From a virus: a stretch of 23,607 nucleotides of DNA. Of the stretch, positions 2,587 to 21,055 are shown piece by piece. The notes beneath the pieces are model-generated. The model did not search any database and was not told the DNA's origin. It was given only the letters and a program-made list of their open reading frames with translations. Positions within the stretch are counted from its first letter, which is position 1; each line of letters begins with the position of its first letter. The stretch covers positions 1-23,607 of IMG/VR virus record IMGVR_UViG_3300040810_000067; one strand, given 5' to 3'. Made by a program: the position numbers and the translations under genes.

Positions 2587-2940
2587 CTATTTTGCTAATG
2601 GATTCTTATTTTTGTCTTTAATGCCTTTTAATTCTTTATCAATTAGATCAAGTCTAGTTTTTATTATCTCTAAATTGTTTTTGTTGTCAGATAATCCTTG
2701 TTTTATATCTGATATTCTATCCAGTGTACTTTCGTAGTTATCGTTTATTTTATTATTTGTATCTGTTAGATCTACAGTTTCATTAATTACATATTGTCTT
2801 GCATTTAATTCTGAAACTTTTTCTTCTAATATTTCTATGTTGGCAATCAGCTGACCGTATGTAGTAAAGCCTGCGCCTATAGCGCCAACAACGCCTATAA
2901 GGCTAACTATGCCAGCAAGGTTGTTCTTCAATTTATCCAT
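2587..2940 (-). CDS. Membrane-anchored coiled-coil protein, inner-membrane spanin-like
   Basis: 117 aa. A short basic N-terminus is followed by one hydrophobic, glycine-rich membrane segment (about 9-31) and then a long heptad-type coiled coil (about 33-112) rich in Asn, Lys, Asp and Glu. This N-in membrane anchor plus periplasmic coiled coil is the plan of inner-membrane spanins (Rz type), which help fuse the membranes at the end of lysis. No lipoprotein partner (Rz1 type) is seen inside or next to it, so the assignment rests on architecture and position behind the holin. The start overlaps the end of the upstream exported-protein gene by 13 bases, showing translational coupling. It could instead be a holin accessory protein. 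Confidence 0.6.
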   Translation of the reverse strand: MDKLKNNLAGIVSLIGVVGAIGAGFTTYGQLIANIEILEEKVSELNARQYVINETVDLTDTNNKINDNYESTLDRISDIKQGLSDNKNNLEIIKTRLDLIDKELKGIKDKNKNPLAK

Positions 2941-5133: not shown

Positions 5134-5327
5134 GACACAAACATCCTAATACCAGTATAGATAGCACCGAGCATAGCACCTATCCAGAACACAACCTTGA
5201 CAGCACCCCTGCCCATGTTGACCTGTTCTTTTAGATCATTAATTTCTTTTTGATTCTGGCAGACTTTATCTGTCAGATTATCAATCTTCTCACTAATCAC
5301 TGCTAATGTTATCTCTGTATCTGGCAT
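5130..5327 (-). CDS. Coiled-coil plus C-terminal membrane anchor protein, XhlA-like
   Basis: 65 aa when started at the ATG at 5325-5327. That start lies 4 nt after the stop of the preceding 29-aa gene and gives the compact domain. A longer reading from 5378 would run through that gene in another frame without a ribosome site. Residues about 7-36 are a coiled coil and about 42-60 a membrane segment. This is the layout of XhlA-type lysis accessory proteins, which act with a holin at the inner membrane. The stop overlaps the holin start as ATGA, supporting a shared lysis role. The family assignment is by architecture only. Confidence 0.6.
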   Translation of the reverse strand: MPDTEITLAVISEKIDNLTDKVCQNQKEINDLKEQVNMGRGAVKVVFWIGAMLGAIYTGIRMFVS

Positions 5328-5331
5328 TATT

Positions 5332-5421
5332 TTACTTTGGAAATATATCAAATGGGTGGAAATCTTCCCACACTGCATATTTAAATCCTTCTATTTCTTC
5401 TTCTTTAATTATGTTGAACAT
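5332..5421 (-). CDS. 29-aa micro-protein
   Basis: A short frame beginning MFNIIKEEEIEGFKYAVW and ending PFDIFPK. It has a GGAG ribosome site 5 nt before the ATG, fills exactly the space between two neighbouring genes, and stops 4 nt before the next start. The tiling and ribosome site favour a real gene. It has no membrane segment and its function is unknown. It may mainly couple translation into the lysis genes. Confidence 0.5.
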   Translation of the reverse strand: MFNIIKEEEIEGFKYAVWEDFHPFDIFPK

Positions 5422-5429
5422 TGTTACTC

Positions 5430-5660
5430 CTATTCTACTAGTTCTGCAAGTGGGGGAAACCAAATGCTTTTTATTTGTTGATCTTCTGGGTCATAGTACT
5501 TTAACAAAGCGTCTGTATCATCTGGCACATCAATCCAAAACAATGGATTCGCTATGTCAAATTCCATATCCTCTATTTGTTCTATTCTATATCCTGTTTG
5601 TGTTTGTTCTTGATTCCCATATAGTTCTATTAATGGGTTCACTAATGCTTTCTTTGTCAT
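5430..5660 (-). CDS. Small fibre-associated protein (76 aa)
   Basis: Acidic small protein with the landmark PLFWIDVPDD (about 39-48) followed by YYDPEDQQIK. Short proteins with a similar FxxxxPLFWVDxxDD core occur right after tail-fibre genes in many marine phages (recalled, not searched). Some may be fibre assembly factors or minor virion components, but no function is established. The ribosome site is AGGAG before the ATG, 10 bp after the adhesin stop. The position suggests a role in making or capping the adhesin. Confidence 0.65.
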   Translation of the reverse strand: MTKKALVNPLIELYGNQEQTQTGYRIEQIEDMEFDIANPLFWIDVPDDTDALLKYYDPEDQQIKSIWFPPLAELVE

Positions 5661-5670
5661 TTATAATCTC

Positions 5671-6639
5671 CTAGTATTCTACTATCACTATTCCTTGGTA
5701 ACCATCACCACCAATTCCCTTAATACTATTATATTGTATAGTAGCTGGTCCACCACCACCACACCCATATCCTGTAGCATCATCCCCATTTAAGTATGAA
5801 CTACTTATAGTGCAACCACCCATCCCAGACCTTCCCCCAAAAGGTCCAGCTATTGCAGTTTTGTATAAAAATTCCCAATAAATTGCCCAATCGTTATGGG
5901 CAGTGGATACTTGCTCAAAATATGGATCTCTTCCATTAATTGCCATTGGCGCTCCACCCTCTCCACCAACGCCATGGGCTGGTACCGTCCCGTACATAGA
6001 CCTAGCACCATCACCACCTGAAATATTCAAATCACCACCAGTGCCTACTCCACCATGTTGACCTGAAAGATGTATTCCTTGTTGAGGACTTCCTGAATTT
6101 CTGCCACCTGCGCCACCAGTAGCAGAACAATAAGTGCCAAAAGATGAAGTGCCACCAGTTGTTCCTGGGGAAGTAGATGGATAAGCTGTTCCACCAGTAC
6201 CCCCAGCACCAATAGTAACAGATACAGTATCTCCTGCTGTCAACCCTGTAATCCATTTAATTGCAGTCCCCCCACCAGAGCCACCAGGGGCAACAGTGCT
6301 ATTGTTATAAGCATTTCCACCACCACCACCACCACCAACAACAGTAACTTTACAAGCAGTTACTCCTGCTGGTACAGTAAATGTTCCAGATGTTGTAAAG
6401 ACTTCTGCTCTAGGTCCAGGAAGTCCTGCACTAATACCTGTAAGAGCCGCACCACTAATAGCAGGTAAATCACCAGTTAGTTTACTAGAAGCCATACCAG
6501 AAATCTTAGCATTAGTAATAGAACTATCTGCTATCTTAGCTGTACTGATAGATCCATCAGCTAGTTTAGCTGTACTAATAGCACCATCAGCTATATCGGC
6601 TGTATCTACACCATCTGCTATATCTCTTGCTTTAGTCAT
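5671..6639 (-). CDS. Glycine-rich distal tail adhesin
   Basis: 322 aa. The N-terminus (7-47) is a tandem repeat of about 10 residues (IADGAISTAK, LADGSISTAK, IADSSITNAK). It is followed by a beta-rich lead-in (79-101: FTTSGTFTVPAGVT then CKVTVV) and a long glycine-rich part (102 to about 305) with runs such as VGGGGGGG. The end GGDGYQGIVIVEY is typical of polyglycine tail adhesins, in which packed polyglycine-II helices form the receptor-binding tip. It lies 9 bp after the large fibre gene with an AGGAG site, as a second fibre subunit would. Receptor binding at the virion tip is the likely role. The N-terminal repeat resembles residues 577-590 of the large fibre and may be the docking region. 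Confidence 0.8.
   Translation of the reverse strand: MTKARDIADGVDTADIADGAISTAKLADGSISTAKIADSSITNAKISGMASSKLTGDLPAISGAALTGISAGLPGPRAEVFTTSGTFTVPAGVTACKVTVVGGGGGGGNAYNNSTVAPGGSGGGTAIKWITGLTAGDTVSVTIGAGGTGGTAYPSTSPGTTGGTSSFGTYCSATGGAGGRNSGSPQQGIHLSGQHGGVGTGGDLNISGGDGARSMYGTVPAHGVGGEGGAPMAINGRDPYFEQVSTAHNDWAIYWEFLYKTAIAGPFGGRSGMGGCTISSSYLNGDDATGYGCGGGGPATIQYNSIKGIGGDGYQGIVIVEY
6499..6621 (-). repeat. 30-bp tandem coding repeat in the adhesin N-terminus
   Basis: About four units of a decapeptide of the form IADG-I-STAK are encoded in tandem, with high DNA identity between neighbours. Such units usually form a repeating trimeric shaft. The repeats can expand or contract by recombination. Confidence 0.6.
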
Positions 6640-6648
6640 GTGTTGCTC

Positions 6649-9600
6649 CTATACTAATTCTTTTTCTTCTGTTGTGTAGTAATTTGTTCCACCATCTGGT
6701 GTAACTATTCTCATATATGATGTAGTGGCTGGGTCAGAACCTTGCCCTATATTCAATGGCTCTGTAACACCACTAGGGAATGTAAGTGTATAATCACTAG
6801 CAAAGTTATATTGGAATATAGATTTTTCGTAAGTGTCGTTTGCACTGTTAGATTCTCCCATATAAATATATCTACCATTATTACCTACAGTAATGATTGG
6901 ATTACCATAAAAAGTTCCACCACCTTGCTGTGTTATTGATGATTTAGAAAAGTATTGTAAAGTATTTGGGTCAAAAGAACCCATAGTAAAAGTATATAAG
7001 GTATAGGTAGAACCACCATCAGTATCTTGTACTATAGCATTTAATACTCTACCATTTTTACTAACCTCAGCAGATCTAACACGACCAGTTCCTATTAATG
7101 AATAAGCAGTACTTAAATCTCCATAAGAAATTGGTGCCCAAGTAGAAGTTAAATCCCAAGCTGTAGATAAACTGAAAACTTTTACTCCTTGAGCAGTACC
7201 AATTTTAGGAGCATAAGAACCAGTTGATAGTTTATGACCCTGATTTACCACACAAATTTTAGTTCCGTCAGAATTAAAACTTACACCATTAACACCAGCA
7301 CCATTAAATTCAGCAGTCCAATTTGCATAAGAAGCACTACCCATATCGACAGATTGGTTTGGACTTCCATAAACAACATTTAATGTAGATATATCCCAAG
7401 CAGTACTAAAATCATATCTCCTAACAGTTGTGCCAGTACCACCAAACCAATATAATCCATTGTTGCCTATCTCTCCATGTTTAGGGTGAGGTGCATATTG
7501 TGTAGTAACTGCTCTACTAGAACTAACAGTAGCAGTTGATATATCCCAAGCAGTAGATAAACTTGCATCAACAATATACCAATATCCAGTAGAACCACCA
7601 TACATGTATTGTTGGAAAATTAATTGTGTACCATCATCAGTAAAGTGCATAAAGTCAGGTGCATCAACGCCAGATGAACCTGTATCCCATTGAGTAGGGC
7701 TACTGCCAATAACACTTGAATCATAAGTATTACCAACATTCTTCAAAAACAATTCAATCTCTTTTGCACCACTAACATTACTAAAGCTATATGTGGTATT
7801 GCCACTAAGAGTGTGTGTGAATACATTGCCTGCACTCCAGTCTATTGTAGGGGTAGTACCACTTAAAGTAACAGCAGTTAATCCAGCACTTGGTTGGTCT
7901 ACCCAACTCATTGAACCATCACCATCTGATGTAAGCATCTGTCCACTTGTGCCATTGCCTGATACATCTAATTGTGTAGCACCTACAGCATCATCAGCTA
8001 TGTTAGCTGTATCTACCTTGCCATACTCTAGTGCAGTACCACCAGCATTCATTTGTAATACTTCATCAGCACTACCTAAAGAACCTAGTCCTGTACCACC
8101 TCTTGCATATCCTAGTGTACCACTTGTTATCGCTGAAGCCGCAATAGTGGCAACATTGAAAGTACCATAAGCAATAATATCCACATAATCTGTACCACTA
8201 ATACCAATAGGACTAGCAAAAACCACGCTACTCCCACTAGTAACAGTAACATCCGTTCCGTTAACCATTTTAATACCATTAAGGTATACATCCACATACG
8301 GTGGATCATAAACAAGCGTATTACCATTTGAATCTGTACCAGTTACTGTTGTTGTTGAAGAACTAAAAGAATATTGGAATCTATCTGATGTACCATTAAT
8401 ACTAGATCCTGCATTTTGCCACCCTGATGATCCGTATACTTTCATAGCATTTGATGTTGTATCAAAGTATAACGCACCTATAAGTAAAGCATCCCCATCA
8501 TTGTCTAAAGCAGGGGCAGATGATTTAGGGCCTAAGTATCTATCATCAAAACTATCATAAGAAGCAGCAGCAGCCGTTTCAGATGCAGCAGCATTTGTAG
8601 CAGATGTTGAAGCACTGTTTGAGTAAGTTAACGCATTACTTGCGTATGTTTGAGCAGCATTTTCACTTGTTGACGCATTAGATGCACTCGTAGCTGCTGA
8701 AGTTGCACTTTGAGAAGCTGCAGTTGCAAATGTACTTGCTTCATTTCTATAAGTTAATGCACTTGCTTCACTAGAATTTGCACTTGTAGCTGATGATGCA
8801 GCAGAAGTTGCTGAACTTGCAGCTGAAGTGGCAGATGTTGCGGCATTAGTTTCTGAACTAGCAGCGTTTGTTTCGCTTGTAGCCGCATTACTTTCTGATG
8901 TAGCAGCTGCTGTAGCAGAAGTAGATGCGCTTGTTGCTGATGTACTAGCATTTGTTTCGGATGTAGATGCGTTGCTTTCTGAAGTCGCAGCATTACTTGC
9001 GGAGGTAGCGGCAGCAGTGGCTGATGATGCAGCGGCTGTTGCGCTAGAAGCTGCGGAAGTTGCGCTTGATGTAGCACTAGCAGCATCTACAATTAAATCC
9101 CATTTTGCACTATCTGTATTAGATGATAATGGTTGTGATCCTGATGATGTATGTGATGTATTACATAAATAGATATTATTGTTTGATGTATCTTTAACTA
9201 GATCCCTAGCATTATAATCAGTCGCTGATCCCCAGTTTCCTTGATAAGTACCAAGTTCTTGTGTAACAGATATTTCACCGTTATCATCAAATGCTAATAT
9301 CTTGTTAGCTCTTTCTGCTGATCCTACTGTAAATTCAGTAGAAGTCATAGTGTTTGTTCTGGATAGTTTTATAGATCTATCAACTTCTTCTTGTAGTTCC
9401 TGCGCTATAACAATAGCCCTATCAAATGCACCTTCTACAGTTTCTGCTGTAAACGGATCGTTTTCTACAAGATCAACGCTCTGTGTTTGTGTTGTTTCTC
9501 TGCGTAATACAACTGTTTCTGTTGATAATGGAGCAGTAACAAATGTAACGTTACCACCACCAGCAGATCCTACACCTGATACAGTGTAATCTGTTGTGAG

Positions 9601-9744
9601 TGTTTTAACAGTTTCAGTTCCGTTAGCTGAACGCACAATAACTTCAATATCCCCTTCTGCAAGGATCTTGTATGTGTATGCGAACACTGTGTTACTACCG
9701 TTGCCTGAGTAACTGTTCTTTATTGTTGTAGTTGTTATAGTCAT
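6649..9744 (-). CDS. Tail fibre protein with T7 gp17-like N-terminus
   Basis: 1031 aa. Residues 1 to about 150 match the tail-docking N-domain of T7-type fibres (SYSGNGSNTVFAYTYKI, VVLRRETTQTQ, AFDRAIVIAQEL). Residues 221-396 are an almost pure Ala/Ser/Thr/Asn heptad array, a trimeric coiled-coil shaft. A YLGPKSSAP to LYFDTTSNAMKVY segment follows (about 403-437), as in many marine fibres, then a beta-rich stretch with the YARGGTGL motif. The C-terminal part (about 690-1000) has repeated STAWD units (near 730, 779 and 858), suggesting a beta-propeller-like head. The ribosome site AGGAG is 6 nt before the ATG. It follows the ejection-protein genes, as in T7. The protein should attach to the tail nozzle and contact the host surface together with the downstream adhesin. 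Confidence 0.87.
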   Translation of the reverse strand: MTITTTTIKNSYSGNGSNTVFAYTYKILAEGDIEVIVRSANGTETVKTLTTDYTVSGVGSAGGGNVTFVTAPLSTETVVLRRETTQTQSVDLVENDPFTAETVEGAFDRAIVIAQELQEEVDRSIKLSRTNTMTSTEFTVGSAERANKILAFDDNGEISVTQELGTYQGNWGSATDYNARDLVKDTSNNNIYLCNTSHTSSGSQPLSSNTDSAKWDLIVDAASATSSATSAASSATAAASSATAAATSASNAATSESNASTSETNASTSATSASTSATAAATSESNAATSETNAASSETNAATSATSAASSATSAASSATSANSSEASALTYRNEASTFATAASQSATSAATSASNASTSENAAQTYASNALTYSNSASTSATNAAASETAAAASYDSFDDRYLGPKSSAPALDNDGDALLIGALYFDTTSNAMKVYGSSGWQNAGSSINGTSDRFQYSFSSSTTTVTGTDSNGNTLVYDPPYVDVYLNGIKMVNGTDVTVTSGSSVVFASPIGISGTDYVDIIAYGTFNVATIAASAITSGTLGYARGGTGLGSLGSADEVLQMNAGGTALEYGKVDTANIADDAVGATQLDVSGNGTSGQMLTSDGDGSMSWVDQPSAGLTAVTLSGTTPTIDWSAGNVFTHTLSGNTTYSFSNVSGAKEIELFLKNVGNTYDSSVIGSSPTQWDTGSSGVDAPDFMHFTDDGTQLIFQQYMYGGSTGYWYIVDASLSTAWDISTATVSSSRAVTTQYAPHPKHGEIGNNGLYWFGGTGTTVRRYDFSTAWDISTLNVVYGSPNQSVDMGSASYANWTAEFNGAGVNGVSFNSDGTKICVVNQGHKLSTGSYAPKIGTAQGVKVFSLSTAWDLTSTWAPISYGDLSTAYSLIGTGRVRSAEVSKNGRVLNAIVQDTDGGSTYTLYTFTMGSFDPNTLQYFSKSSITQQGGGTFYGNPIITVGNNGRYIYMGESNSANDTYEKSIFQYNFASDYTLTFPSGVTEPLNIGQGSDPATTSYMRIVTPDGGTNYYTTEEKELV
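8557..9084 (-). repeat. 21-bp-period coding repeat (heptad shaft of the tail fibre)
   Basis: About 25 degenerate heptads of the form (A/S)TS(A/E)(T/S)NA are encoded in tandem at residues 221-396 of the fibre. The antisense reading gives a long spurious open frame. The repeat is coding and is not a CRISPR array. Confidence 0.8.
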
Positions 9745-9797
9745 TTGCCGCTCCTATAAGGTTTTATTTTACTGAAAAACCAGTTTTTTGTCCACAT
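9741..9797 (-). CDS. Possible 18-aa leader peptide between ejection protein and fibre genes
   Basis: The frame MWTKNWFFSKIKPYRSGK begins directly after the gp16-like stop (TAAATG) and ends in an ATGA overlap with the fibre start, so it fills the gap exactly. Its own ribosome site is weak (GAAGAA), and the fibre gene has its own AGGAG, which lies inside this frame. It could couple fibre translation to the upstream gene or be chance. Confidence 0.25.
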   Translation of the reverse strand: MWTKNWFFSKIKPYRSGK

Positions 9798-12700
9798 TTA
9801 TTCTTCTATTGTTTTTAAAGCGTTATTTGTTATATCTATCATATTCATATAAAATTGATCTATTAATTGTCTTTTGTCATTAGGGCTAATCTCGTCATTT
9901 TGATATATTAGATCTATAACATCCCCTAAGTCTTTTAACATTGGGGCAGTCTCAAGCAATAAAAACATATCAGAATCAAAACCTCCTGTTAATTTTATAG
10001 CTTCTTGAACTTTGTTATCACCCATTAACATATCAAAAGTAGCTTGGTTAGTAGCCACAGGTTTATACAATTCCCAAAATTTTTGTATTGGCTCTGCGCT
10101 AGCACTAGGATTTCTAACTACAAATGCACCAACCATAGGTATTTCTGATAAATTCTGAACCCAATTATCTGACCATGGTTTTACTGGCGGCTTTGAAATT
10201 CCAGCTTTTTTAAAAGAATAATCTAAAACGTCTAACACATACTTTCCAAGACCACCAGTCCAACTAGTAATATAATTTTGAACTTTTAAAGGGCTATCCA
10301 AACTTGGCCCAACAAGTTCTTCCCAACCCAAAGTATTTCTTAATTTAGCAGCAGCTTGAGCTATTAATGTTGCTGTTGGGCTAGTGTATTCTGTTGTTTG
10401 ATACTCAGGCAAAACTCTTTCCAAACTATATGGCACTATTGGTCTATCAAAAAAGAAACTTCTATTTTGCGAATCTTCCATAAACGGTCTTATAAATTCT
10501 GGTATTGGTAAAAAAGACATACCATAGTCACCAAGAAATTCTTTTACATCAGGGAAAAGATCTTTATCCTTGTTATAAGCCCAGTCCAACATTTTTTCTG
10601 GGAATGTACCAAACAACCAACCTATTTCAAATGGTTTGGGTATTCTCCAAACAACTTGATCTGGAGTTCCTTCATTAGTTATAATAATCCAATTTAAATC
10701 TTTTTGCCATTGTGGTAGGTTTTTATAAACTTCGCTATCTTTGTTTTTGTACCAAAGAAGTATTGTTGGAGTGGTAATCCACATTACGCTTTGTGATATA
10801 ACTTTTTTTCTTCTTTTAGGATCAAATAACCCCTCTTTTAATTTTAAAGCACCCTGAACCCTAGCGTTAAAAAAGGCATTAAGCATATTTAATCCCACCA
10901 TATCAGTGCCCATTTTTCTAAAATCTATTGTCAATTCTCTTGCTTCAAAACCAGCTGATTCTAAAATTTCTCTAGGGGTAAGTTTTTCTGCATCTGGTTT
11001 TTTTAAGTTTTCTTTTTCAAGTCTTTTAACTGTCATTCTAAAATCTTCTAGTCTTGACGCATTTTCAAAAACTTCTGAAATTGCTCTTAATCCCTCTAAC
11101 CAATTTTTAGGGTTTATGTAATTATGCAATTTTCTTCCAGTTAATTCATTAAGCATTTCTCCAGATCTAAAATACCTTCTATCAAAAGAAATCATTGTAG
11201 ATTGCATAGCGCCTGATTTCATGTAATCAGCAAACAAAGCATCCCCTTTTACTTTATCTTTCAACAAACGAAACATACCTCTCATAGAACTAATAAACGG
11301 TATAAAATTATTTTGAGAAAATGCAGCGGCAAAAAATGTATCTCTGCCAAAGTTTTTTGCAATAAATTCAGGATCTAATGTAGCACCTGCCCTTAAAAGT
11401 CTTGTGGGAATGGCAGCCATTCTGTAAAACAATTCCGCTTGATATTTACTAACATCTTTTAAACTTGTTGCTATTTCTTGTGGCACTTCATAAATTTTCA
11501 ATTTTCCTTTTTCATAAAAAGCAATTTGATTTTCCTTCAACCATCCATCTTGCTTTCTTAAAATTGTCAAACCATCTTTAGCGCTTTCGCTAATTTTTGT
11601 TTTTTTATCAAACAAAGCATCAATTTCTTTTGGTGTAAGTTTTGTTGATTTTAATGATTTTACTTCTTTAACTTCATCAAAAAAACTACCAATCTTTTCT
11701 GATTTAGAAATGTTTTTGCTTTGTTGATATTTTAAAGCTAATTCAATAAACCCTTTGTTTACTGCATTTTTTTCGGCAATTTGCACAAAATGCAATGTAT
11801 TCAAAAGCATAGTTTCTATAGGATCAGCCGCAGCCAATTCTTTTGTTGTGCCTTTCATTTCTTTCAATGGATTCCTAACTAGCGTTCCTAACCCAGTATC
11901 GGTTTTTTTAGCGGCTGTGGTTAAGGAAAGATCCAAAACTTTATTTAAAGGAACATAATCCCTATTTAAATCTAAAATTGTTCTATATAATTCTGGCGAC
12001 AATATACCAGCATCTTGCAAATAAGTTAACACTCTCTGTTGATATTCATTCATTTCTTTAAATGCTTGAGAGTATTGTTTGTTGTAATTTTTTATAACAT
12101 TGTTTAGCTTTGCTCTATCTGATTTTGTTAATGAGTAAACAGTTGATATACCTTGGTTGTATTTTTCCATAGCTCTTTTTGCTATTGCGTAAGCTGTAAA
12201 TTCTTCGTATTTTCTTGGAGTGTCAATTACATCTTTAAAAATCTCCATAAAAGATTTGCCATTAATTTTTAAAGTGTTGTAGTCAAATGTTCCTTTTTTT
12301 ATAAAATGAAACCCCTTCCCTATATTCCCCATTTGTATTCTACTTTTTTGATAAAAATCAAAAGAACTCATGGCAATTCCTTTATCCCTAGCTTGTTGCA
12401 CAGCTTCTTTTATGGGATAAAGTCTATCTAATAAACTTGTTACAATAGCAGACTTAGATAATTGAATGTCTTTTGTATCTAATTTAATTTTACCAATTTC
12501 AGTCTTGCCCAATATAAAATTTACATCTGCGTTTTCATGCTTGCCAAATTCTTTATTTTTGTCGTATGTTCTTTCTATATATTGACCGTTATTTTCTAAT
12601 TCTTTTTCTATTTGTTTAATTCGTTTCTCTTTATTAACAAGTTTTGATGTGTTGGAAATCTGTTGCTTAATATCTTTTGCGTCTTTATTTAGCTTTTTTA

Positions 12701-14063
12701 ATCTCTTTTCGTCATAAAATTCGTTTTTATTTTTCTTTTGCTTTAGTTCATTAAGTTCAATCATTATATTAGATTGCTGTTTTTCCAGTTCGGCAAGCTG
12801 TTCTTTTGATCTAGTTGCTTGTTCTTTTTTAAAGGCAGCAACATCTTTTGATTCAATAAACCTTCCAGTATCTTCAACAAGATCTTTCAAATCTTGCCTT
12901 CTTATTTCTAATTGTGTTTCGTTTAATTTTTTTGCTGATTCTGTAGTAGATTCTAATATGTTCTTTTCTAAAGTCTTTATTTCACTTTCAACTTTTTTAA
13001 TCTCTGCACTTTTGCTTTTAATTACTGTTGGCAAAGCATCTTGCTCTAGCTTGTTTAGTTCCGCTAGTTCTTCTTTTAAGTTTCTAACTTCCGCTTCTAC
13101 AATCTTTCTATCTTTAGAAAAGGTTTTAATGTTTTTGCTACCAGCTTCCTCTTTCATAAGATTGTCATCTAACGTATCTTTCAATATTTCCAAAGGATTA
13201 CCTTTGTTTTTTACAGCGCTGTTTTCTAACATCATTCTTGCTTTTGGATCAAAAAATCCAAATGCACCTAATAAAATTGCATTGTTGACCATTGTTTCTT
13301 TAGTTGGCAATTCTCCTTCTACAGCTGCTCCAATACCTGTTAAAGCAGACCACCTTGATCCAGCAACCGTAAATTTATTTACAGGGAGTTTTAATATAGG
13401 CAAAACATTAGGGGCAACAGTCATTCCTCCAGCAATTAAACCACCCTTTAAACCTTCTTCTATGCCATGTTTTAAAAACTGATCCCAATACTCCCCAAAT
13501 GTATCAACATCACCTCTTTGTAACGCCCCTAAAAACATACCCTTAATAGAATCATTTACAAAACCTGCTGCAAACCCACTTGCAAGAGGACTCCCCCCAG
13601 TAACCAAAGCAGCAGGAACTGCCCCTGCGACAAATGTAGGTGTATCCGCACCCAAAGCAACCAAAGATTCAAAAACCCTTTCTAATGCCCCTGTATCTTC
13701 TGGCTCTGGAGCGTATGCCTTTCTCCAATCTATACCACCACTAAACCTTTTTTTCCCTTGAGCTTCCCTGCTTTGCAGCCAAAGATTAATATTAGATTTT
13801 CCTAAACCTCTTTCCCAGTATGTACCCCAATCAGCATCTTCTCCAACTGCCCAATCTTCTACACCCTCTAAAGTTTTTTTCCACCAAGACCTACTCTCCT
13901 CCTCCATCAAAGTTTCTTTTTTATTTATGCCAAGTATTTCTTCATCATTTGCTCCTGAAAGCCTACCTAAAATAAACTTTTTCCTATCCATTTCCTTTAT
14001 TAGATTTTTGTCTTGAGAAGCGCCACTTGCTTCAAAGATATATTGATAAGGATCTATAGCCAT
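9798..14063 (-). CDS. gp16-like internal virion (ejection) protein with LPD38-like region
   Basis: 1421 aa, the largest protein here. A glycine/alanine-rich hydrophobic stretch (about 130-215) could be membrane-active. A long Lys/Glu coiled coil follows (about 317-495). The region 875-1140, with AELFYRMAAIPTRLLRAG and FIAKNFGRDTFFAA, resembles the large polyvalent-protein-associated domain LPD38 found in giant phage ejection proteins. Position after gp14- and gp15-like genes and size match T7 gp16, which enters the cell first and forms the inner-membrane part of the DNA channel. T7 gp16 starts with a lytic transglycosylase domain; no such motif is visible here, so wall digestion is presumably done by another protein. 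The start overlaps the gp15-like stop by one base (TAATG). Confidence 0.8.
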   Translation of the reverse strand: MAIDPYQYIFEASGASQDKNLIKEMDRKKFILGRLSGANDEEILGINKKETLMEEESRSWWKKTLEGVEDWAVGEDADWGTYWERGLGKSNINLWLQSREAQGKKRFSGGIDWRKAYAPEPEDTGALERVFESLVALGADTPTFVAGAVPAALVTGGSPLASGFAAGFVNDSIKGMFLGALQRGDVDTFGEYWDQFLKHGIEEGLKGGLIAGGMTVAPNVLPILKLPVNKFTVAGSRWSALTGIGAAVEGELPTKETMVNNAILLGAFGFFDPKARMMLENSAVKNKGNPLEILKDTLDDNLMKEEAGSKNIKTFSKDRKIVEAEVRNLKEELAELNKLEQDALPTVIKSKSAEIKKVESEIKTLEKNILESTTESAKKLNETQLEIRRQDLKDLVEDTGRFIESKDVAAFKKEQATRSKEQLAELEKQQSNIMIELNELKQKKNKNEFYDEKRLKKLNKDAKDIKQQISNTSKLVNKEKRIKQIEKELENNGQYIERTYDKNKEFGKHENADVNFILGKTEIGKIKLDTKDIQLSKSAIVTSLLDRLYPIKEAVQQARDKGIAMSSFDFYQKSRIQMGNIGKGFHFIKKGTFDYNTLKINGKSFMEIFKDVIDTPRKYEEFTAYAIAKRAMEKYNQGISTVYSLTKSDRAKLNNVIKNYNKQYSQAFKEMNEYQQRVLTYLQDAGILSPELYRTILDLNRDYVPLNKVLDLSLTTAAKKTDTGLGTLVRNPLKEMKGTTKELAAADPIETMLLNTLHFVQIAEKNAVNKGFIELALKYQQSKNISKSEKIGSFFDEVKEVKSLKSTKLTPKEIDALFDKKTKISESAKDGLTILRKQDGWLKENQIAFYEKGKLKIYEVPQEIATSLKDVSKYQAELFYRMAAIPTRLLRAGATLDPEFIAKNFGRDTFFAAAFSQNNFIPFISSMRGMFRLLKDKVKGDALFADYMKSGAMQSTMISFDRRYFRSGEMLNELTGRKLHNYINPKNWLEGLRAISEVFENASRLEDFRMTVKRLEKENLKKPDAEKLTPREILESAGFEARELTIDFRKMGTDMVGLNMLNAFFNARVQGALKLKEGLFDPKRRKKVISQSVMWITTPTILLWYKNKDSEVYKNLPQWQKDLNWIIITNEGTPDQVVWRIPKPFEIGWLFGTFPEKMLDWAYNKDKDLFPDVKEFLGDYGMSFLPIPEFIRPFMEDSQNRSFFFDRPIVPYSLERVLPEYQTTEYTSPTATLIAQAAAKLRNTLGWEELVGPSLDSPLKVQNYITSWTGGLGKYVLDVLDYSFKKAGISKPPVKPWSDNWVQNLSEIPMVGAFVVRNPSASAEPIQKFWELYKPVATNQATFDMLMGDNKVQEAIKLTGGFDSDMFLLLETAPMLKDLGDVIDLIYQNDEISPNDKRQLIDQFYMNMIDITNNALKTIEE

Positions 14064-15982
14064 TATTTTAATTTTCCATCTGGGGTATGAGTTCTTTCAA
14101 ACAATTTATTCCACGCCAAATAATCTGGATTATCTCTGTATACATTTGGTTTAATCATAATTGTTGGATTTGGCCTTGGATCAACTGTTTCATTTAAATA
14201 TATATTAAATGTTGTGCCATTCATGGTTTTAGTGTCTTTAATCATTGTGTTTGAATCTATTGAAATCAAATCCATTTCTTCTTGTTCAAAAAGTTCTGGA
14301 TTGTTTTTTATCCACTCTTGCACTTCTTCGCTATTGTAAAAAAGATCAAAATCATTATTAAATTTTTCTTTGTTAGCGTCATCCCATTGAGGGCCATTTG
14401 TTTCAGTGTATGTGGATTGTTTTTTTTGAGTAACATCTTTTGAAAACATATTAGCAATATTTTCTGCTTGTTTATTTACGCTTATTGCGTATTTATCTAT
14501 CAAATCATCTGTTATAATAAAATTATCACTAAATGGATCTAGCAATTCTGAAGCAGGAATTTCCTTTACATACTTTCCTTCTTCATAAGCTTGCTCTACT
14601 AAAGTTTCAAATTCGTAAACCCTTCTCCCAGTACTTAAATCTTTGTCTTTAAATAACCCTTGAACTTGAGGAATAAACCTATCAATAAGCCTATCCAAAT
14701 CTTGCAATTCTCTAGCTGTCATTGGACTTTCTAATATTCCAGAAATTCTTGTTAAATCATTTTCACTAATAGCGCCTTCGTTTACTAAGTCTAAAATACT
14801 CATTCCTTCTTTATATTCTTCATCTTTTGCGAACTTACTATTTGCAGAAGGAATGTATGATTTTTCATGCAATGATTTTATTTTATTTTGCAAAGACATT
14901 TTTCTAACATCTCTAAAAATATCAACATCTGATTCGTTTGGTATTAACCCTTGATATTTATTCATAGCTAAATCGCTTAGTGACTGCTTTAATCTAACTC
15001 CTTCTCCATCTTTTGAAAAAGACAATTTGTTAATTTCAGATACTGTTAAACCCTCATTTAAAACTTTTTTATAATTTGTGTCAAAAAGATCATTGTTGTT
15101 TCTTTCTATCTCAGTTGCTATACGCCACTGTTGATTCACAGATTGCTCTTTTAAAAAATCTAAAGTGCTTTGGTACGCATCACTGTCAACAGTTAATACG
15201 TTTTCATTAATATCTGTGTACTCGCCAATTTTATTGTTTAAATTATCAAACATAAGCCCCCAATCAGTTCTTTGGTTTCCTAATGGATCTGTCATTGTTG
15301 GCAAAGTACCACCCCCAGATTGAAGCAAAAGAATTTTTCTATTTGCAGTAGCTTCAATATTATTTTTAGTTTCAATGACCGCATCTGCTGATAATATCCC
15401 ATTGTAAGCATTTAGTTCTTCTGTTAAGATTTTGTAATTAGTTTTTAATTCAAGTTTAGTTTTTGATCTATCTAATGATTCAAGCCCTACTTTTGTTGCT
15501 GTATCAAAAGATGTTATTGTTTCTGCAATTCTTCTTTCGTTAATTAAATTATTTACTTTTTGCAATCCATCAACATAAGCTAAATTCCCATGATTAGCTT
15601 CATACTGTCTAAATGCGTATTCATCAAATACACCATTGCTAGTAAAATGATCTTTTACAATCCTATCTGTATTTCTTTTCCATCTTTTTTTATATTCTGA
15701 ATCAAATGTTTTGTAATCTGATTGTGTTCTTAAATAATCTTCTGCCGAAAGAATAGCCGCTTGAGTATCAGCATAAGCACGAAGTCCTTTGTTTTTAATC
15801 TCTGTTTCTCTGAATTGCTTCTCTATTTCAATCTTTCTTTCATTGTAAGCAAGCAATTCATTTGACAATGTGCTGCCAAGTTGCATTAATGCTTCAGCGC
15901 CAGCTGTACCAGTCTTTAGCGTTCTTCCGCTTCTAATTGGATCTCTACCTAATGAACCTGTATATCTTGGAACAGTAACCAT
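14063..15982 (-). CDS. gp15-like internal virion (ejection) protein
   Basis: 639 aa, mainly alpha-helical and charged, with no membrane segment. It starts MVTVPRYTGSLGRDPIRSG and continues with a helical region (about 25-200) rich in Glu and Lys, e.g. AYNERKIEIEKQFRETEIKN. T7 gp15 is of similar size and forms, with gp16, the periplasmic tube for DNA entry. Sequence conservation in this family is low, so the call rests on gene order between gp14-like and gp16-like proteins, size and composition. The ribosome site is AGGGTG before the ATG. Confidence 0.72.
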   Translation of the reverse strand: MVTVPRYTGSLGRDPIRSGRTLKTGTAGAEALMQLGSTLSNELLAYNERKIEIEKQFRETEIKNKGLRAYADTQAAILSAEDYLRTQSDYKTFDSEYKKRWKRNTDRIVKDHFTSNGVFDEYAFRQYEANHGNLAYVDGLQKVNNLINERRIAETITSFDTATKVGLESLDRSKTKLELKTNYKILTEELNAYNGILSADAVIETKNNIEATANRKILLLQSGGGTLPTMTDPLGNQRTDWGLMFDNLNNKIGEYTDINENVLTVDSDAYQSTLDFLKEQSVNQQWRIATEIERNNNDLFDTNYKKVLNEGLTVSEINKLSFSKDGEGVRLKQSLSDLAMNKYQGLIPNESDVDIFRDVRKMSLQNKIKSLHEKSYIPSANSKFAKDEEYKEGMSILDLVNEGAISENDLTRISGILESPMTARELQDLDRLIDRFIPQVQGLFKDKDLSTGRRVYEFETLVEQAYEEGKYVKEIPASELLDPFSDNFIITDDLIDKYAISVNKQAENIANMFSKDVTQKKQSTYTETNGPQWDDANKEKFNNDFDLFYNSEEVQEWIKNNPELFEQEEMDLISIDSNTMIKDTKTMNGTTFNIYLNETVDPRPNPTIMIKPNVYRDNPDYLAWNKLFERTHTPDGKLK

Positions 15983-15991
15983 AACTACACC

Positions 15992-16417
15992 CTATAAAAT
16001 TGACTGTTGTGCTTGATATTGACCAACAGCCTTACCAAACCCACTTATTATACTAGATCCTGCTGAATAAGTTGTTGCTGCAATTTGCCCTGCTAACTCA
16101 GCATCTCTAGCTTTTGTTTCAGCCCACAGTCCTTTTTCTAAGAACCACATATCGTTTTCAAATTCTTCCATGTCAGTCAGCATAGTAATCAAACTACTAC
16201 CAGTTCCAGCAACAACGCCAGAAGCAGCGGCAGCAGCTCTTTGTTTACTTAATGTTTTTGTCTGCTCTGTTAATCTTTTTTGTTTCTCATATTCGTGATT
16301 TAATTGTGATTCATACTTCTGCCAAGCGGCATTAGCTTTCATCATTTGAATCTGCTGTTGTGCAGCTGCCATTGAAAATGCTGCGTTTATTAATGAACCG
16401 AATAATCCAAAAAACAT
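15992..16417 (-). CDS. gp14-like internal virion (ejection) protein
   Basis: 141 aa. A hydrophobic Gly/Phe/Ala N-terminus (1-20, FFGLFGSLINAAFSMAAA) is followed by a helical central part (QMMKANAAWQKYESQLNHEY, KQRAAAAASGVVAGTGS) and an amphipathic C-terminus. This is typical of T7 gp14-type proteins, which are ejected and build the outer-membrane pore of the entry channel. It lies 9-10 bp from both neighbours and has a clear AGGAG ribosome site. The family diverges strongly, but the ASGVxAGTGSS-like motif is common in marine podovirus members. Confidence 0.75.
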   Translation of the reverse strand: MFFGLFGSLINAAFSMAAAQQQIQMMKANAAWQKYESQLNHEYEKQKRLTEQTKTLSKQRAAAAASGVVAGTGSSLITMLTDMEEFENDMWFLEKGLWAETKARDAELAGQIAATTYSAGSSIISGFGKAVGQYQAQQSIL

Positions 16418-16426
16418 TTTTAACTC

Positions 16427-18913
16427 CTAATCACTTGTTACCAGTGTACCAGTTATTGCAAGAACTGTCATTGGTAAAGGTTGTGTTTGTTCAATGGTGA
16501 TTTGCCCTTCTGTACCCCATCCTAAATTAGTTACCTTCTTATCGCCAGTAAATTCTGGTATATTTTCCCCTACTGGTGTAGATGATGTTCTAAATGGGAT
16601 CTGATCTCCATTAACAGTAATACCAACAGTTTTATGCAATCTAACAGCAACTTCATTAAATCTCTTTGGTCTGTTTTGTGCTGTACCTGCTGATGCTCCT
16701 GCTTCTATCCTCATTGTAACTATTTTACTCGTATATCCTAATCCTATTTCTACATTATGATAACCACTTGCTGATGGTAATGTAACAGTTATTTGTCCGT
16801 TTGTAACAGTTTGATTTGGATAAACAGCATCTCCTACTAATATTTGTACGCTCTCACCTTCTAAATGGTCTAGGTTAGTTATTGTACCTGTTGTACCATT
16901 TATTATACCATTAAGCGTACTATCCATATTTAATGTTTTATCTAAGTATTCTATGTATTGCACTCGTGAACCATTGACCATTCTTTCTACAATAACATAA
17001 ACTTCATTCTCTGTATCACTAGCTATAGAAGCAACTGATTTTACTTTAGCATGATTTTTAAATATATGAGTGCCTGATCCTACAGCTTTTAGTTGATGTA
17101 TTGTTCTATCTAACGCTTGCTTGTAGCTACGAGATAGTTCTATTGTATTAGCATCAACAACATAAACATAATAAGTATCACCATCTGTTAGTCCTGATAT
17201 TTCTGTGTTGCCATTAGCATCATATACCACCGCATCTCCTGTTGTATATCCGTGTGCTGTAATAGTTATATTTCCATTCTGTAATGGATCTGTTGTACTT
17301 GGTGTAATAGCTGTAGCTGCATTTATCTCATGTTTAATATGTCCACCTAATATATGTCTATGCCATGCTATAATATCTTCTTCACGCTTGTAAGTCATAC
17401 CTAACAACACACCATCATCACGAACAGCCCAGTAAATACTCTCAGGTTCTTGAGCATAAGTTATATCGTATATGCCTTCTCCTGTAATATGTTCTGCTAA
17501 TATAGTCATGTCTGGGGCTGAATACGCATCATCATCAAACCTATAAGCAAACTCTCTTAATTTCTTTCTTTGCTTTTGAACAAACAAGATCACATTGCCA
17601 ATCTGCACTGGCTCTGTTGCATAACCACCATAAGTTGTTTGCAGTGTTATGTTTACGTTATCTGGTTGTAATGGCTCACCTGCTGGCTTACCTACTTTAA
17701 ATTCACCACCTGCTGTACCAACTATTAAATCTCTTGCAGGAGCTAACCATCTAATAACATTTACTTTGTTTGCTGCTATTGTATAAATAAAAGCATCAGC
17801 GGCAGCAGATGTTCCTGTATCAAAGTCTGTATATATTCCTGATTGTGAAGCCCATATTGTTTGTGGAAAATACGTTGATCCTGCAAATACTAATCTTTGT
17901 TCAAAAAATGTAACTGTTTTAGGATAGCCAGTATGCTCTGACCACGCTCCTAACGCCCAATCTGTAGATGCAGAAGATGATCCTATATCTTCTTTTATTT
18001 CCCAAGTAACTTGTGTGGGAGATGTGTACGCTGTAATAATGCCATATCCATCATTTAATCTTACTTGTCTGCCTACATCATCTGTATGAAAACCAGTTAG
18101 TCCAGCAACATCTGGGAACAGCCCTGATGCTGTAAGAGTTCTTCCAGTTCCAACGCTTGAATGTGATGAAACAAATGTAAAAGTACTTGTGTTGTCGTCT
18201 AAAAATGGGCCATGGATAAATTCTTCATTTGTAATTGTCCATGATGTATGCCCAGTTCTTGTTAGCTTTTTCGGCTCAAATGTTTCGTGAACGATATACA
18301 TAATGTCTGCTGACTGGGTATATTGTATTTCGTATAAGATTGATTCTGTTATATTGGTAGATATTTCATAAACTCTATTTGCTACACCACCTGATGTATA
18401 AGTGGTATATCCTGTACTATCTATATCAGTGCCACTAAGATCTTGTATTTCAAACGTGTTAGTTGTTGCGTTAGATACTAAAAATCTTTTGCCATTTACT
18501 TCAATCATACCTTCTACACTAGTAATAAATATCTCATCACCATTACTGTAACCATGACCTGTTGCTGTAACAACTGCTGGATCTGCTTGTGTTATCCCTG
18601 ATATTGTTACGTCTGATTCTGTAATAATACCGTTGTCTTTGTAAAAACGAATGTACTGATCGCCAAACTCTAATATATAAGTTTGTTCGTCATTAAACTC
18701 AAAAGGTATTAATCGTGTAGTTTTTGTGTGATCTTTTACTGGGCCAACATAACGTGTGCCATATCTTCTTGAAGCACCTCCTTGTGGGAATACAGTCATG
18801 TTCTCTAGTGTTTCAACTCCATTGCCATACTTTTTAAAGTCTATCTGACCAGCCAACTTAGGACTTAATTCACCAGCAGTAAAATTTGATTGAAAAGGAT
18901 GTACTCTTGCCAT
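16427..18913 (-). CDS. Tail tubular protein B (nozzle, T7 gp12-like)
   Basis: 828 aa. The start is typical (FQSNFTAGELSPKLAGQID, then GGASRRYGTRYV), as is the core EHTGYPKTVTFFEQRLVFAG (about 326-345). This protein forms the nozzle of the short tail and carries the fibres. Two beta-rich inserts (about 102-183 and 530-620) share the pattern ITATGHGYxxGD...V and resemble the FCCH-like modules often inserted in phage nozzle proteins. The start overlaps the tail tube A stop by one base (TAATG). Confidence 0.9.
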   Translation of the reverse strand: MARVHPFQSNFTAGELSPKLAGQIDFKKYGNGVETLENMTVFPQGGASRRYGTRYVGPVKDHTKTTRLIPFEFNDEQTYILEFGDQYIRFYKDNGIITESDVTISGITQADPAVVTATGHGYSNGDEIFITSVEGMIEVNGKRFLVSNATTNTFEIQDLSGTDIDSTGYTTYTSGGVANRVYEISTNITESILYEIQYTQSADIMYIVHETFEPKKLTRTGHTSWTITNEEFIHGPFLDDNTSTFTFVSSHSSVGTGRTLTASGLFPDVAGLTGFHTDDVGRQVRLNDGYGIITAYTSPTQVTWEIKEDIGSSSASTDWALGAWSEHTGYPKTVTFFEQRLVFAGSTYFPQTIWASQSGIYTDFDTGTSAAADAFIYTIAANKVNVIRWLAPARDLIVGTAGGEFKVGKPAGEPLQPDNVNITLQTTYGGYATEPVQIGNVILFVQKQRKKLREFAYRFDDDAYSAPDMTILAEHITGEGIYDITYAQEPESIYWAVRDDGVLLGMTYKREEDIIAWHRHILGGHIKHEINAATAITPSTTDPLQNGNITITAHGYTTGDAVVYDANGNTEISGLTDGDTYYVYVVDANTIELSRSYKQALDRTIHQLKAVGSGTHIFKNHAKVKSVASIASDTENEVYVIVERMVNGSRVQYIEYLDKTLNMDSTLNGIINGTTGTITNLDHLEGESVQILVGDAVYPNQTVTNGQITVTLPSASGYHNVEIGLGYTSKIVTMRIEAGASAGTAQNRPKRFNEVAVRLHKTVGITVNGDQIPFRTSSTPVGENIPEFTGDKKVTNLGWGTEGQITIEQTQPLPMTVLAITGTLVTSD

Positions 18914-19491
18914 TATGTTCTAAAGTCCGTAAATGTTGTTGAAACAAGATCGTCTACAAATCCTTCCATTCCATCAACACTTCTGGCTTCAGATAATTTA
19001 TCTCTATACATTTTTTCCATTTGGCCTTGAAGCTGCACGCTTCCTGTTATTGGATAAGCTAAATCAGCAGCAAGTTTTGATGTTAATGTTTCTACAAACA
19101 TAGAATCAAATAATGTAGGATTTGTAATTCTTGCTATATATAATATTTTAGCAGTGCTTTCATCTGTTACAAGCACCCTGCCATTTGTAGCGTCATTTTC
19201 TATTTTAAATATAAAATCCGCGTATTCCATTTCTAACACACGCAGACAATATGGATCAGTAGGTAAAGCGTACATATAATTATAACCATAAGCAGGAGTA
19301 TCACTAAGTTGTGCTAATGATGCTCTTGTTATAGCAAAATTCCAAGGATGTGAACGTAAAACTAAATCACGCGAATCTTGATAGAACGCGTTACATAATC
19401 TTGCTCTTTCTGTGTCGTCTGTTAGGCTAGTGATTGGATCATCACCTAAACGCCTAAGTGCATTACTGCATATAGAAACTTCAGTTGCCAT
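18913..19491 (-). CDS. Tail tubular protein A (gatekeeper, T7 gp11-like)
   Basis: 192 aa, close to the 196 aa of T7 gp11. The N-terminal ICSNALRRLGDDPITSL and the LRSHPWNFAITRASL stretch are hallmark sequences of this adaptor family, followed by YMYALPTDPYCLRVL. It forms the ring between portal and nozzle. The ribosome site is AGGTGGG before the ATG. A GC-rich hairpin (19509-19528) just upstream separates it from the capsid genes. Confidence 0.9.
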   Translation of the reverse strand: MATEVSICSNALRRLGDDPITSLTDDTERARLCNAFYQDSRDLVLRSHPWNFAITRASLAQLSDTPAYGYNYMYALPTDPYCLRVLEMEYADFIFKIENDATNGRVLVTDESTAKILYIARITNPTLFDSMFVETLTSKLAADLAYPITGSVQLQGQMEKMYRDKLSEARSVDGMEGFVDDLVSTTFTDFRT

Positions 19492-19508
19492 TACCCACCT
19501 ATTAAGTT

Positions 19509-19528
19509 GGGGGGCTTTTACACCCCCC
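19509..19528 (-). terminator. G6/C6 hairpin after the capsid genes
   Basis: A perfect 6-bp GGGGGG/CCCCCC stem with an 8-nt loop lies between the stop of the capsid-associated gene (19536) and the tail tube A start. No U-tract follows on either strand, so it is at best a partial terminator or an RNA-stability and processing element. It would let capsid mRNA exceed tail mRNA. Confidence 0.5.
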
Positions 19529-19535
19529 TGTTATA

Positions 19536-19997
19536 TTAGTCTGTTACATATTGCATTGTAAGTACGATTGTACCTGTAGCGTTTGCTCCACCTAATGTAA
19601 CTGTTACTGGCATACCGTCTTGGTTTGCGTCAACTTCTAAACCGTAGTTTAAAGCAATAGTAGCACAAACATCTACAAGTCCTGCTGTAGCTGAAGATGC
19701 TGCTGCTTTAAATGCGGCTGCTGAAACTGATACTGCTGCATCACTTGAATCTGTGTGAGCAGCGTAACCAACGGATAGAGTTGTTGAAGTACCTAGAGCA
19801 TCATATGCTAAAGATCCACCAACAATTCTTGCGCCATTTGGTAAGTTAAACATTTCAATAGTTTCGCCATTTGTTAGTGCAGATGCTTCGTAAGTTGCAT
19901 AAGCAATTCTAACTCTACCAGCGAGTTCATTGGTTTTAATTCTCTCAGAAGGATTGTTTTGATTCCACTGAGTTTTTTGTGCTGAATATACTGTCAT
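19536..19997 (-). CDS. Capsid-associated virion protein, possible head decoration
   Basis: 153 aa and rich in Ala, Thr, Val and Gly. The pattern is that of a beta-rich virion protein: FNLPNGARIVGGSLAYDALG, then TTLSVGYA and TGTIVLTMQYVTD at the end. It directly follows the major capsid gene (12-bp gap) with a strong AGGAGG site, so it should be made at a high level like the capsid. A head-decoration or capsid-stabilising role fits position and composition. Identity with a named family is not certain. Confidence 0.65.
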   Translation of the reverse strand: MTVYSAQKTQWNQNNPSERIKTNELAGRVRIAYATYEASALTNGETIEMFNLPNGARIVGGSLAYDALGTSTTLSVGYAAHTDSSDAAVSVSAAAFKAAASSATAGLVDVCATIALNYGLEVDANQDGMPVTVTLGGANATGTIVLTMQYVTD

Positions 19998-20009
19998 GCT
20001 ATCCTCCTA

Positions 20010-20873
20010 TTAAGATTCTACGCAAGCTATTTCAACGACTTTTTCGTCCTCAATACGCGTAGCACCGATAGTCATTGAAAGGAAAACTTGAGTTGCATAG
20101 TTTTTGTCTGCACGTTCAGATATTCTAGTGCTAACATCACTACCTACAGCAAGACCTAAACCAGATTGTGTGAAAGCAAGAGCCTGTCTGTTACCATCAC
20201 CATCAAGGCCTAGTCTTTCTGTTCTGACAAAGTTAAAGCCTAAGAATGTGTTAATCTCACCTTGTACTAGGGCTTTAATGCTTGCATAGTCAGCTGATGT
20301 AACTTTTTCAAGCGCCAACAAGTCTGACATTTGTTTTGATGTTGCAATTAAATATCTAGCTTCATCTGGATCAACGTCATTGCCATCTAAAATTTCTTTA
20401 GCTTCAATTAGTTTATCCAAGTTCAAGCCATTTGAACCATGTGCTACTTTTTGACCTGCTGGTAAAGCAACAGTTGTGCCACCTGAAACACCGCCATAAG
20501 CGTTGCCAGTTGCAGCAGAAATAATTGCATCATCCATTGCACGACCCATAGCCCATGCGCCTGCCATTGCATATTCTGATTGAGGTGAGATAAGCATACG
20601 TACCTTATCCTCATTATCAATCAAGTCTGCCCAGTCGTAATCGTCCATAGTTACTTTACGTCTGGAGTGTGGTGTGTCCATTCTTGGAGTGTCAGAATGA
20701 CGTGAAGTCCTTTTCTGAGCAGCAGCAGTTCCGATTCTTTCAAAGAAATGCGATTTACCAACAACCGTTTCAGTTCTAACCGTATCTCTTAATCTTGAAC
20801 CTTTTTGCTGTGCCAAGTGGAACACATTACTTTTGTACTGTTCTACAAAAGCTGTTGTGATTTCTATTGACAT
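20010..20873 (-). CDS. Major capsid protein
   Basis: 287 aa. The sequence pattern, with the basic stretch RTSRHSDTPRMDTPHSRRKV (about 55-74), DYDWADLIDNEDKVRML, then AMGRAMDDAIISAATGNAYGG and ATSKQMSDLLAL, matches the HK97-fold capsid proteins of HMO-2011-like marine podoviruses. It is shorter than T7 gp10. It assembles the icosahedral head on the scaffold protein encoded just upstream. The gene has its own promoter (21021-21048) and a structured 140-nt leader. The ribosome site is AGGAG, 8 nt before the ATG. Confidence 0.88.
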   Translation of the reverse strand: MSIEITTAFVEQYKSNVFHLAQQKGSRLRDTVRTETVVGKSHFFERIGTAAAQKRTSRHSDTPRMDTPHSRRKVTMDDYDWADLIDNEDKVRMLISPQSEYAMAGAWAMGRAMDDAIISAATGNAYGGVSGGTTVALPAGQKVAHGSNGLNLDKLIEAKEILDGNDVDPDEARYLIATSKQMSDLLALEKVTSADYASIKALVQGEINTFLGFNFVRTERLGLDGDGNRQALAFTQSGLGLAVGSDVSTRISERADKNYATQVFLSMTIGATRIEDEKVVEIACVES

Positions 20874-20882
20874 AATAGTTCT

Positions 20883-20942
20883 CCTGTTAAGTTAAAAAAA
20901 GTAAAACGGTTTTTGTCCTGCAAATCAGGGAAACCTTACAGA
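20883..20942 (-). promoter_or_regulatory. Leader helix able to mask the capsid ribosome site
   Basis: In the minus-strand RNA, bases 20942-20932 (UCUGUAAGGUU) can pair with 20893-20883 (AACUUAACAGG). This gives ten pairs, two of them G-U, with a single A-A mismatch. The 3' arm includes the first three bases of the capsid AGGAG (20885-20881). A competing hairpin uses the same GGUUU (20935-20931) with AAACC (20912-20908), enclosing CCUG/CAGG, and is followed by the U-rich tract down to 20894. Two exclusive folds next to a ribosome site suggest regulation; this is inference from pairing only. Confidence 0.4.
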
Positions 20943-20944
20943 TT

Positions 20945-21001
20945 AACGCACTGTCCAACGGATTTTAAGGCATCATGCCCACAGTGCAAGTTGTCCGTTA
21001 G
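20945..21001 (-). ncRNA. Putative H-type pseudoknot in the capsid mRNA leader
   Basis: Read on the minus strand. Helix A pairs CUAACGGA (21001-20994) with UCCGUUGG (20962-20955): 8 bp including one G-U. Helix B pairs GCACUGU (20987-20981) with ACAGUGC (20954-20948): 7 perfect bp, extended by AAC/GUU beyond a 2-nt bulge. The order is A, B, A', B', so the helices cross. A small hairpin GGGCA-UGA-UGCCU (20980-20968) sits between them. The predicted transcript starts only about 13 nt upstream. I do not recognise it as a known riboswitch class. Confidence 0.5.
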
Positions 21002-21020
21002 GGCTTGCTATTGTTAACAT

Positions 21021-21048
21021 ATTATAACATAGAACATTTAGATTACAA
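21021..21048 (-). promoter_or_regulatory. Sigma70-like extended -10 promoter for the capsid gene
   Basis: On the minus strand the -35-like TTGTAA (21043-21048) is separated by 16 bp from a perfect -10 TATAAT (21021-21026) preceded by TGT. The predicted start is near 21014, giving a leader of about 140 nt before the capsid ATG. The -35 lies just after the scaffold stop. The -10 region (ATGTTATAATATG) closely resembles that of the plus-strand promoter at 83-111. Confidence 0.65.
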
Positions 21049-21055
21049 ATCTTAA

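Follow-up and report, generated by a model that had tools for sequence, protein, structure and literature searches.

Does the gap ahead of a phage capsid gene hold a structured RNA and, if so, which of its bases pair and what might the fold be for? The question arises in a 23,607-nt stretch of viral DNA (IMG/VR record IMGVR_UViG_3300040810_000067, hereafter the window), which covers the structural half of the genome of a pelagiphage-like podovirus, its structural genes lying on the minus strand. The closest described phage is Pelagibacter phage EXVC032P Baldr, with a capsid identity of 76.6%; blastn against described phages returned no significant DNA similarity. The hosts of related isolated phages are SAR11, bacteria that rank among the most abundant of the sea; one related isolate has no RNA polymerase of its own, and its group presumably uses that of the host (PMC10504331). 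Since at least some members of the lineage use the host RNA polymerase, the timing and boosting of capsid synthesis in such phages are of interest. Comparison among relatives shows that the predicted capsid mRNA opens with ~100 nt that form a conserved, putatively cis-acting RNA, in which two tiny predicted pseudoknots, clearly preserved, lie between two look-alike hairpins.

The locus has the following features:
21883-21056, minus strand: scaffold gene, upstream of the gap
21021..21048, minus strand: predicted sigma-70 promoter, TTGTAA-16-TATAAT with extended TG
21048-21043, minus strand: -35 box of this promoter, TTGTAA
21029-21021, minus strand: extended -10 box of this promoter, TGTTATAAT
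20881..20885, minus strand: Shine-Dalgarno AGGAG of the capsid gene, in the sequence and outside the RNA element
20010..20873, minus strand: major capsid (head) protein gene, phrog_3437, E 3.8e-98

The scaffold and major head protein genes are separated by 182 nt (20874-21055); this gap size, and a predicted promoter ahead of the element, had been given in an earlier reading of the letters alone (the sequence-only reading), and both were found. Transcription is predicted to start at ~21014, and the major capsid gene would be the first gene of the predicted transcript. When the 45 nt before P1, the first hairpin of the element, were scanned, an extended -10 (TGNTATAAT-like, with 7 or all 8 bases matched) occurred in 62 of 66 distinct leaders vs 3.5% of background windows, and its spacing to P1 was 10-13 nt in 58 of the 66; with P1 at this distance, the element should be the 5'-terminal part of the capsid mRNA. 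Its 3' end is ~22 nt away from the Shine-Dalgarno, which lies within an AU-rich initiation region (20906-20874), and no terminator-like site was found in the gap 20874-21055. A small coding region in the gap was considered and rejected, the gap lengths (133-198 nt) having no regard to three.

As for the pairing, the sequence-only reading had proposed two crossing helices, and these can indeed be drawn in the window: helix A joins CUAACGGA (21001-20994) to UCCGUUGG (20962-20955) on the minus strand by 8 bp, one of them G-U, and helix B joins GCACUGU (20987-20981) to ACAGUGC (20954-20948) by 7 bp plus AAC:GUU; the nested hairpin GGCAUGAUGCC is also there, and the A-B-A'-B' order holds. An equally good crossing pair arose in 16 of 2000 dinucleotide-shuffled gaps and, under a looser rule, in 81 of 1000; given these rates and the free search by which the pattern had been picked, it is by itself only mildly unusual. 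Over 32 related leaders, 65.8% and 66.7% of the cells of helices A and B pair, their covariation score is 0.178 vs 0.157 ± 0.015 in shuffles, and the partner-swap z values are 0.3 (A) and 1.4 (B). On the capsid tree, the two helices have 19 and 21 pair-breaking changes vs 4 and 6 compensatory ones. Thus, the homologous gaps of the relatives break both helices freely, the outcome that the sequence-only reading had itself named as speaking against them, and A and B were given up as a conserved structure.

A different fold emerged from the relatives. Leaders were collected at 80 capsid-gene loci from viral contigs and at a further ~116 loci through a P5-based DNA pattern, partly on the same contigs; the loci are not all independent, several contigs being present twice, and identical leader sequences were counted once. 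The element is numbered 1-103, with the window position equal to 21010 - n, and consists of:
20907..21009, minus strand: whole leader RNA element, found by covariance model R1 at 95.4 bits
20986..21008, minus strand: P1 hairpin at the 5' end, GCAAG/CUUGC with an internal loop of C opposite ACAA and a CC/GG cap
20968..20980, minus strand: P3 hairpin, stem 20980-20977 with 20971-20968, which is also stem 1 of pseudoknot PK1
20961..20974, minus strand: PK1, P3-loop GAU (20974-20972) with AUC (20963-20961)
20947..20960, minus strand: PK2, CGU (20960-20958) with P4-loop GCG (20949-20947)
20938..20954, minus strand: P4 hairpin, ACAGU...A-CUGU, which is also stem 2 of PK2
20908..20935, minus strand: P5 hairpin, GGUUU/AAACC with an internal loop of C opposite ACAA and a CCUG...CAGG cap
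20945..21001, minus strand: helices A and B, in the window sequence and not conserved

The scan of the window with R1 gave nothing above noise besides 21009-20907. RNAalifold, run on 26 long-type leaders with no hint given, recovered P1, P3, P4 and P5, with compensatory change in 15 of its 22 pairs. In alignment A2 (32 sequences), the covariation of the nested helices was 0.457 vs 0.164 in shuffles, and it fell to 0.03-0.06 when the helices were slid by 1-3 columns; like the loop and wobble counts, these figures come from an alignment fitted to the nested structure, hence they lean towards the nested helices, whereas PK1 and PK2 stood outside the model. Taken together, the nested helices, PK1 and PK2 make 30 pairs, with 96.9% of the cells paired and 134 two-sided cells vs 31 in shuffles.

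Regarding the single hairpins, the partner-swap z was at least 5 for every native helix, a test that, like the shuffles, does not control for shared ancestry. Two-sided changes affected 5 of 5 pairs in the P1 lower stem (z 8.7), 4 of 4 in P3 (z 8.3) and 5 of 5 in P4 (z 9.0), and the P5 cells were paired at 98.8% and 98.9%. Shared ancestry is controlled for by a home-made tree-based test (not R-scape) and by change counts on the capsid-protein tree, where P1 had 21 compensatory changes and P4 had 24; many nodes of this tree are unsupported, and the leaders may recombine. In the read strand, the fitted alignment has 52 G-U wobbles vs 2 A-C mismatches, which indicates that the element most likely works as an RNA of mRNA sense. 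Two further candidates were discarded: a nested P2 (e.g. AAUGG with CCGUU), an early guess by eye, because PK1 and PK2 account better for the CCG strand; and P5 as a terminator, because the U run that follows it in the window is not conserved in the relatives.

The two pseudoknots were noticed and tested in the same sequences. For PK1, the non-nested pair 37-48 ranked second of all column pairs, with E < 0.0025 under a tree-based null in which the substitutions are replayed; in an earlier run on a wider alignment of 69 sequences it was only ninth, with E ~0.4. The pair has the composition AU 24, CG 3, GC 3 and UA 2, with zero failures, and the 3-bp helix as a whole is paired at 95.8%, with a covariation of 0.470 vs 0.099 and, on the capsid-protein tree, 9 compensatory changes and 4 breaks. 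PK2 is paired at 100%, with 4 compensatory changes and 0 breaks on the same tree and a partner-swap z of 5.1; its pair 52-61 is UG in 15 leaders, UA in 7, AU in 4 and CG in 3, while its two CG pairs are invariant and therefore uninformative by themselves. The support for PK2 is then one covarying pair, the perfect pairing and an outside hint, namely the S1 pairing of the Rfam family RF01106 described below. UAAA separates the P3 stem from the 3' strand of PK1, and in the sequence both pseudoknots have zero nucleotides between their stems, so that stacking is possible within P3-PK1 and within PK2-P4, which would be joined through their common strand AUC|CGU as two back-to-back H-type pseudoknots.

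The sequence-only reading thus had the right idea and the wrong helices: there is a pseudoknotted RNA in the capsid leader, past the promoter, as it had proposed, and A and B are not its helices. The 5' strand of helix A falls largely inside the variable loop of P1, strand B' corresponds to the 5' strand of P4 plus part of the P4 loop, and the nested hairpin GGCAUGAUGCC provides the stem of PK1, the true first pseudoknot.

The outer hairpins have a feature in common, as P1 and P5 share a 1x4 internal loop, with one base opposite AYAA and a CC:GG cap. The single base is C in 62 of 69 leaders for P1 and in 69 of 69 for P5, and the three A's of AYAA never vary, in either hairpin, across all 69 leaders; the stems around the two loops are instead variable and compensating, and the P5 cap is backed by one leader (L066) in which CC/GG has become CG/CG. 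Invariant loops within variable stems suggest that they are recognised by something. The fold as a whole is a concrete handle, since its 30 base pairs and two invariant loops lend themselves to mutation and compensation one at a time.

What the RNA does is approached from its anatomy and from analogy alone, and the functional readings are ranked on these grounds. The element would act in cis, within the mRNA, for the capsid and the late genes behind it. We slightly favour, with a probability of roughly 0.4, a stability and expression module, that is, a protected, pre-folded 5' end that would keep the ribosome-binding site open. P1 would fold as soon as transcription starts; together with the pseudoknot core, it would deny a single-stranded end to 5'-end-dependent decay, while the AU-rich Shine-Dalgarno region would be left open for translation. 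The two like loops would probably be the binding site of an RNA-binding protein, from host or phage, that locks the protected state. The absence of a terminator-like site from the gap and the position of the Shine-Dalgarno outside the element argue against switching by a terminator or by simple Shine-Dalgarno masking. Some observations run against the protected end: sequence-invariant loops in two hairpins are not obviously needed in a mere stabiliser, some lineages do without the pseudoknot core, and RNAfold prefers a long hairpin in the clade of the window (both discussed below).

The two invariant internal loops in otherwise variable stems resemble a recognition site, and could instead mark a translational operator, in which a phage protein (capsid, scaffold or other) or a host protein would bind the twin C/AYAA loops and control capsid synthesis. 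Phage T4 offers a precedent with a similar layout: gp32 regulates through the 5' pseudoknot of its own mRNA, downstream of which comes an unstructured initiation region containing UUAAA repeats (PMC535899), just as PK1 and PK2 precede an AU-rich initiation region here. However, the T4 operator has one pseudoknot and lies before the gene of its binding protein, whereas this leader has two, plus the twin hairpins, and lies before a capsid gene, whose product is not nucleic-acid-binding; with the Shine-Dalgarno ~22 nt past the element, such an operator appears unlikely.

The position directly past a promoter invites a second analogy, with the put RNAs of phage HK022, which are ~70 nt long, consist of two stem-loops and, for putL, lie just downstream of PL (PMC9378689). 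A put-like antiterminator would act as nascent leader bound to the host RNA polymerase, so that it would neither pause nor terminate readily over the ~20 kb of the late operon. This element is also a short phage RNA, compact, putatively cis-acting and in single copy; relatives use the host RNA polymerase, and the non-overlapping long ORFs downstream to 831 are all on the same strand. Nevertheless, its anatomy is unlike that of put, for which no pseudoknots are described and which serves early operons, as the leader has 103 nt, four hairpins, a double-pseudoknot core between hairpins and a capsid gene behind it. Further, the element is inside the late cluster rather than at its head, and terminator-like sites at 830-20829, counted on both strands, are mildly raised (16 vs 10.1 ± 3.7 in shuffled sequence); on balance, antitermination is rather doubtful, although it ranks marginally ahead of the operator.

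SAM-II and preQ1-I riboswitches are small H-type pseudoknots with an A-rich loop, and the sequence-only reading had likened the leader to them. The likeness is one of topology alone, a compact H-type pseudoknot with an A-rich loop: the leader matches no Rfam riboswitch and has no expression platform that could be found, the gap has no terminator-like site, the Shine-Dalgarno is ~22 nt off and the gene downstream is structural rather than metabolic. Ligand sensing is therefore the least supported of the readings, and very improbable.

The remark of the sequence-only reading that no described class could be recognised holds, since Rfam 15 gave 0 matches at the gathering cut-off in the window and in the loci of three relatives. 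Below the cut-off, a search of 108 bases matched RF01106 (SBWMV1_UPD-PKb) at PK2/P4 with 28.5 bits vs a cut-off of 38 and an E of 0.0033. This family, the upstream pseudoknot domain of furovirus 3' UTRs, is H-type like PK2/P4 and has nearly the same letters (CGUUGGACAGUGCGUUAAUCUGUAA vs CGcuGUACAGUgCGUUAAACUGUAC); its model pairs the same 3+3 bases as PK2, and PK2/P4 conforms to its pattern of an H-type fold with a 3-bp S1 CGN:NCG and a 5-6-bp S2. Conversely, RF01106 belongs to the 3' UTR of plant RNA viruses, as opposed to a phage 5' leader, and its model is devoid of the P1/P5 twin loops, so that convergence is probably likelier than descent. Tandem H-type pseudoknots, familiar above all in the 3' UTRs of plant viruses, would then occur in the 5' leader of a DNA phage, apparently by convergence. 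The Mu-gpT-DE RNA (RF03012), a phage RNA linked by name to the Mu gpT head gene, matched elsewhere in the gap, with 13.8 bits vs a cut-off of 49. No published description was found in the open-access literature, subscription papers lying outside the search. We tentatively propose that phages related to those of SAR11 have a new class of regulatory RNA, in which a double pseudoknot at the 5' terminus is enclosed by the twin C/AYAA hairpins; it might control the late capsid operon either by means of a dedicated RNA-binding partner or via the host RNA polymerase.

As for its occurrence, R1 found the element in 13 longer records, as a single clear copy per record and always before the capsid gene, and it detects the element in Pelagibacter phage Baldr; it had no match in four genomes of the HTVC010P group, nor in distant capsid relatives (freshwater, Alteromonas, Vibrio, Methylophilales). 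The HTVC010P-group leaders, upstream of the capsid gene (L200 1375-1500, L302-L381), have a P3-like hairpin, AGUCUAAYAGACU-UUAAA, and a hairpin with a GAAUAGA loop; by eye, a change of a loop base from A to C goes together with a change of a tail base from C to G. In four other leaders (L028, L031, L083, L086), an extra hairpin (GGAAUAUAG...CUCUAUUC-like) was seen by eye between P5 and the Shine-Dalgarno.

Copies in host genomes were also considered and rejected, because the 29 pattern matches are spread over unrelated phyla, near chance, and one alone scores with the model. This one is in a contig of the marine MAG 'Verrucomicrobia bacterium TMED56', which carries the element at 34.9 bits (L236 3113-3188, minus strand) and is probably a misbinned phage contig.

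Short-type leaders, 75-81 nt long, do without P4 and PK2; some of them retain PK1 as UAUG:CAUA, with 4 bp, and one subgroup is without PK1. Since P4 and PK2, and in one subgroup PK1, are lost in several relatives, some lineages can dispense with the pseudoknot core.

In the clade of the window, the RNAfold optimum is a long hairpin that includes helix B, at -27.7 vs -18.7 kcal/mol for the nested helices alone, the pseudoknots being unscored. The long hairpin is the minimum-energy structure of four leaders (L146 at 5519-5621, L012, L018, L021), where it would exclude P1 and P4; that of L012 reaches 13+7 bp and -37.1 kcal/mol. The clade might accordingly have an RNA that switches between two stable states, the conserved fold and this hairpin; the partner-swap z of the latter is -1.6 over all leaders and the differences within the clade are uncompensated, which makes the switch improbable. 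The long hairpin is real by energy and, with covariation support absent, it was rejected as a conserved fold.

Two other features of the window deserve mention. Positions 19509-19528 (minus strand), flanked by the gene that follows the capsid and by tail tubular A, hold a perfect hairpin of six GC pairs, GGGGGG-TGTAAAAG-CCCCCC, with a counterpart of changed loop in at least eight relatives (L003, L006, L012, L015, L018, L021, L022, L029); no U run follows it on the coding strand, so that it is perhaps a processing or stability site. Finally, positions 1213-1857 (minus strand) encode an HNH/endonuclease VII-like protein that also matches the PHROG annotations 'decoy of host sigma70' and 'Srd anti-sigma factor', with E ~5e-10.
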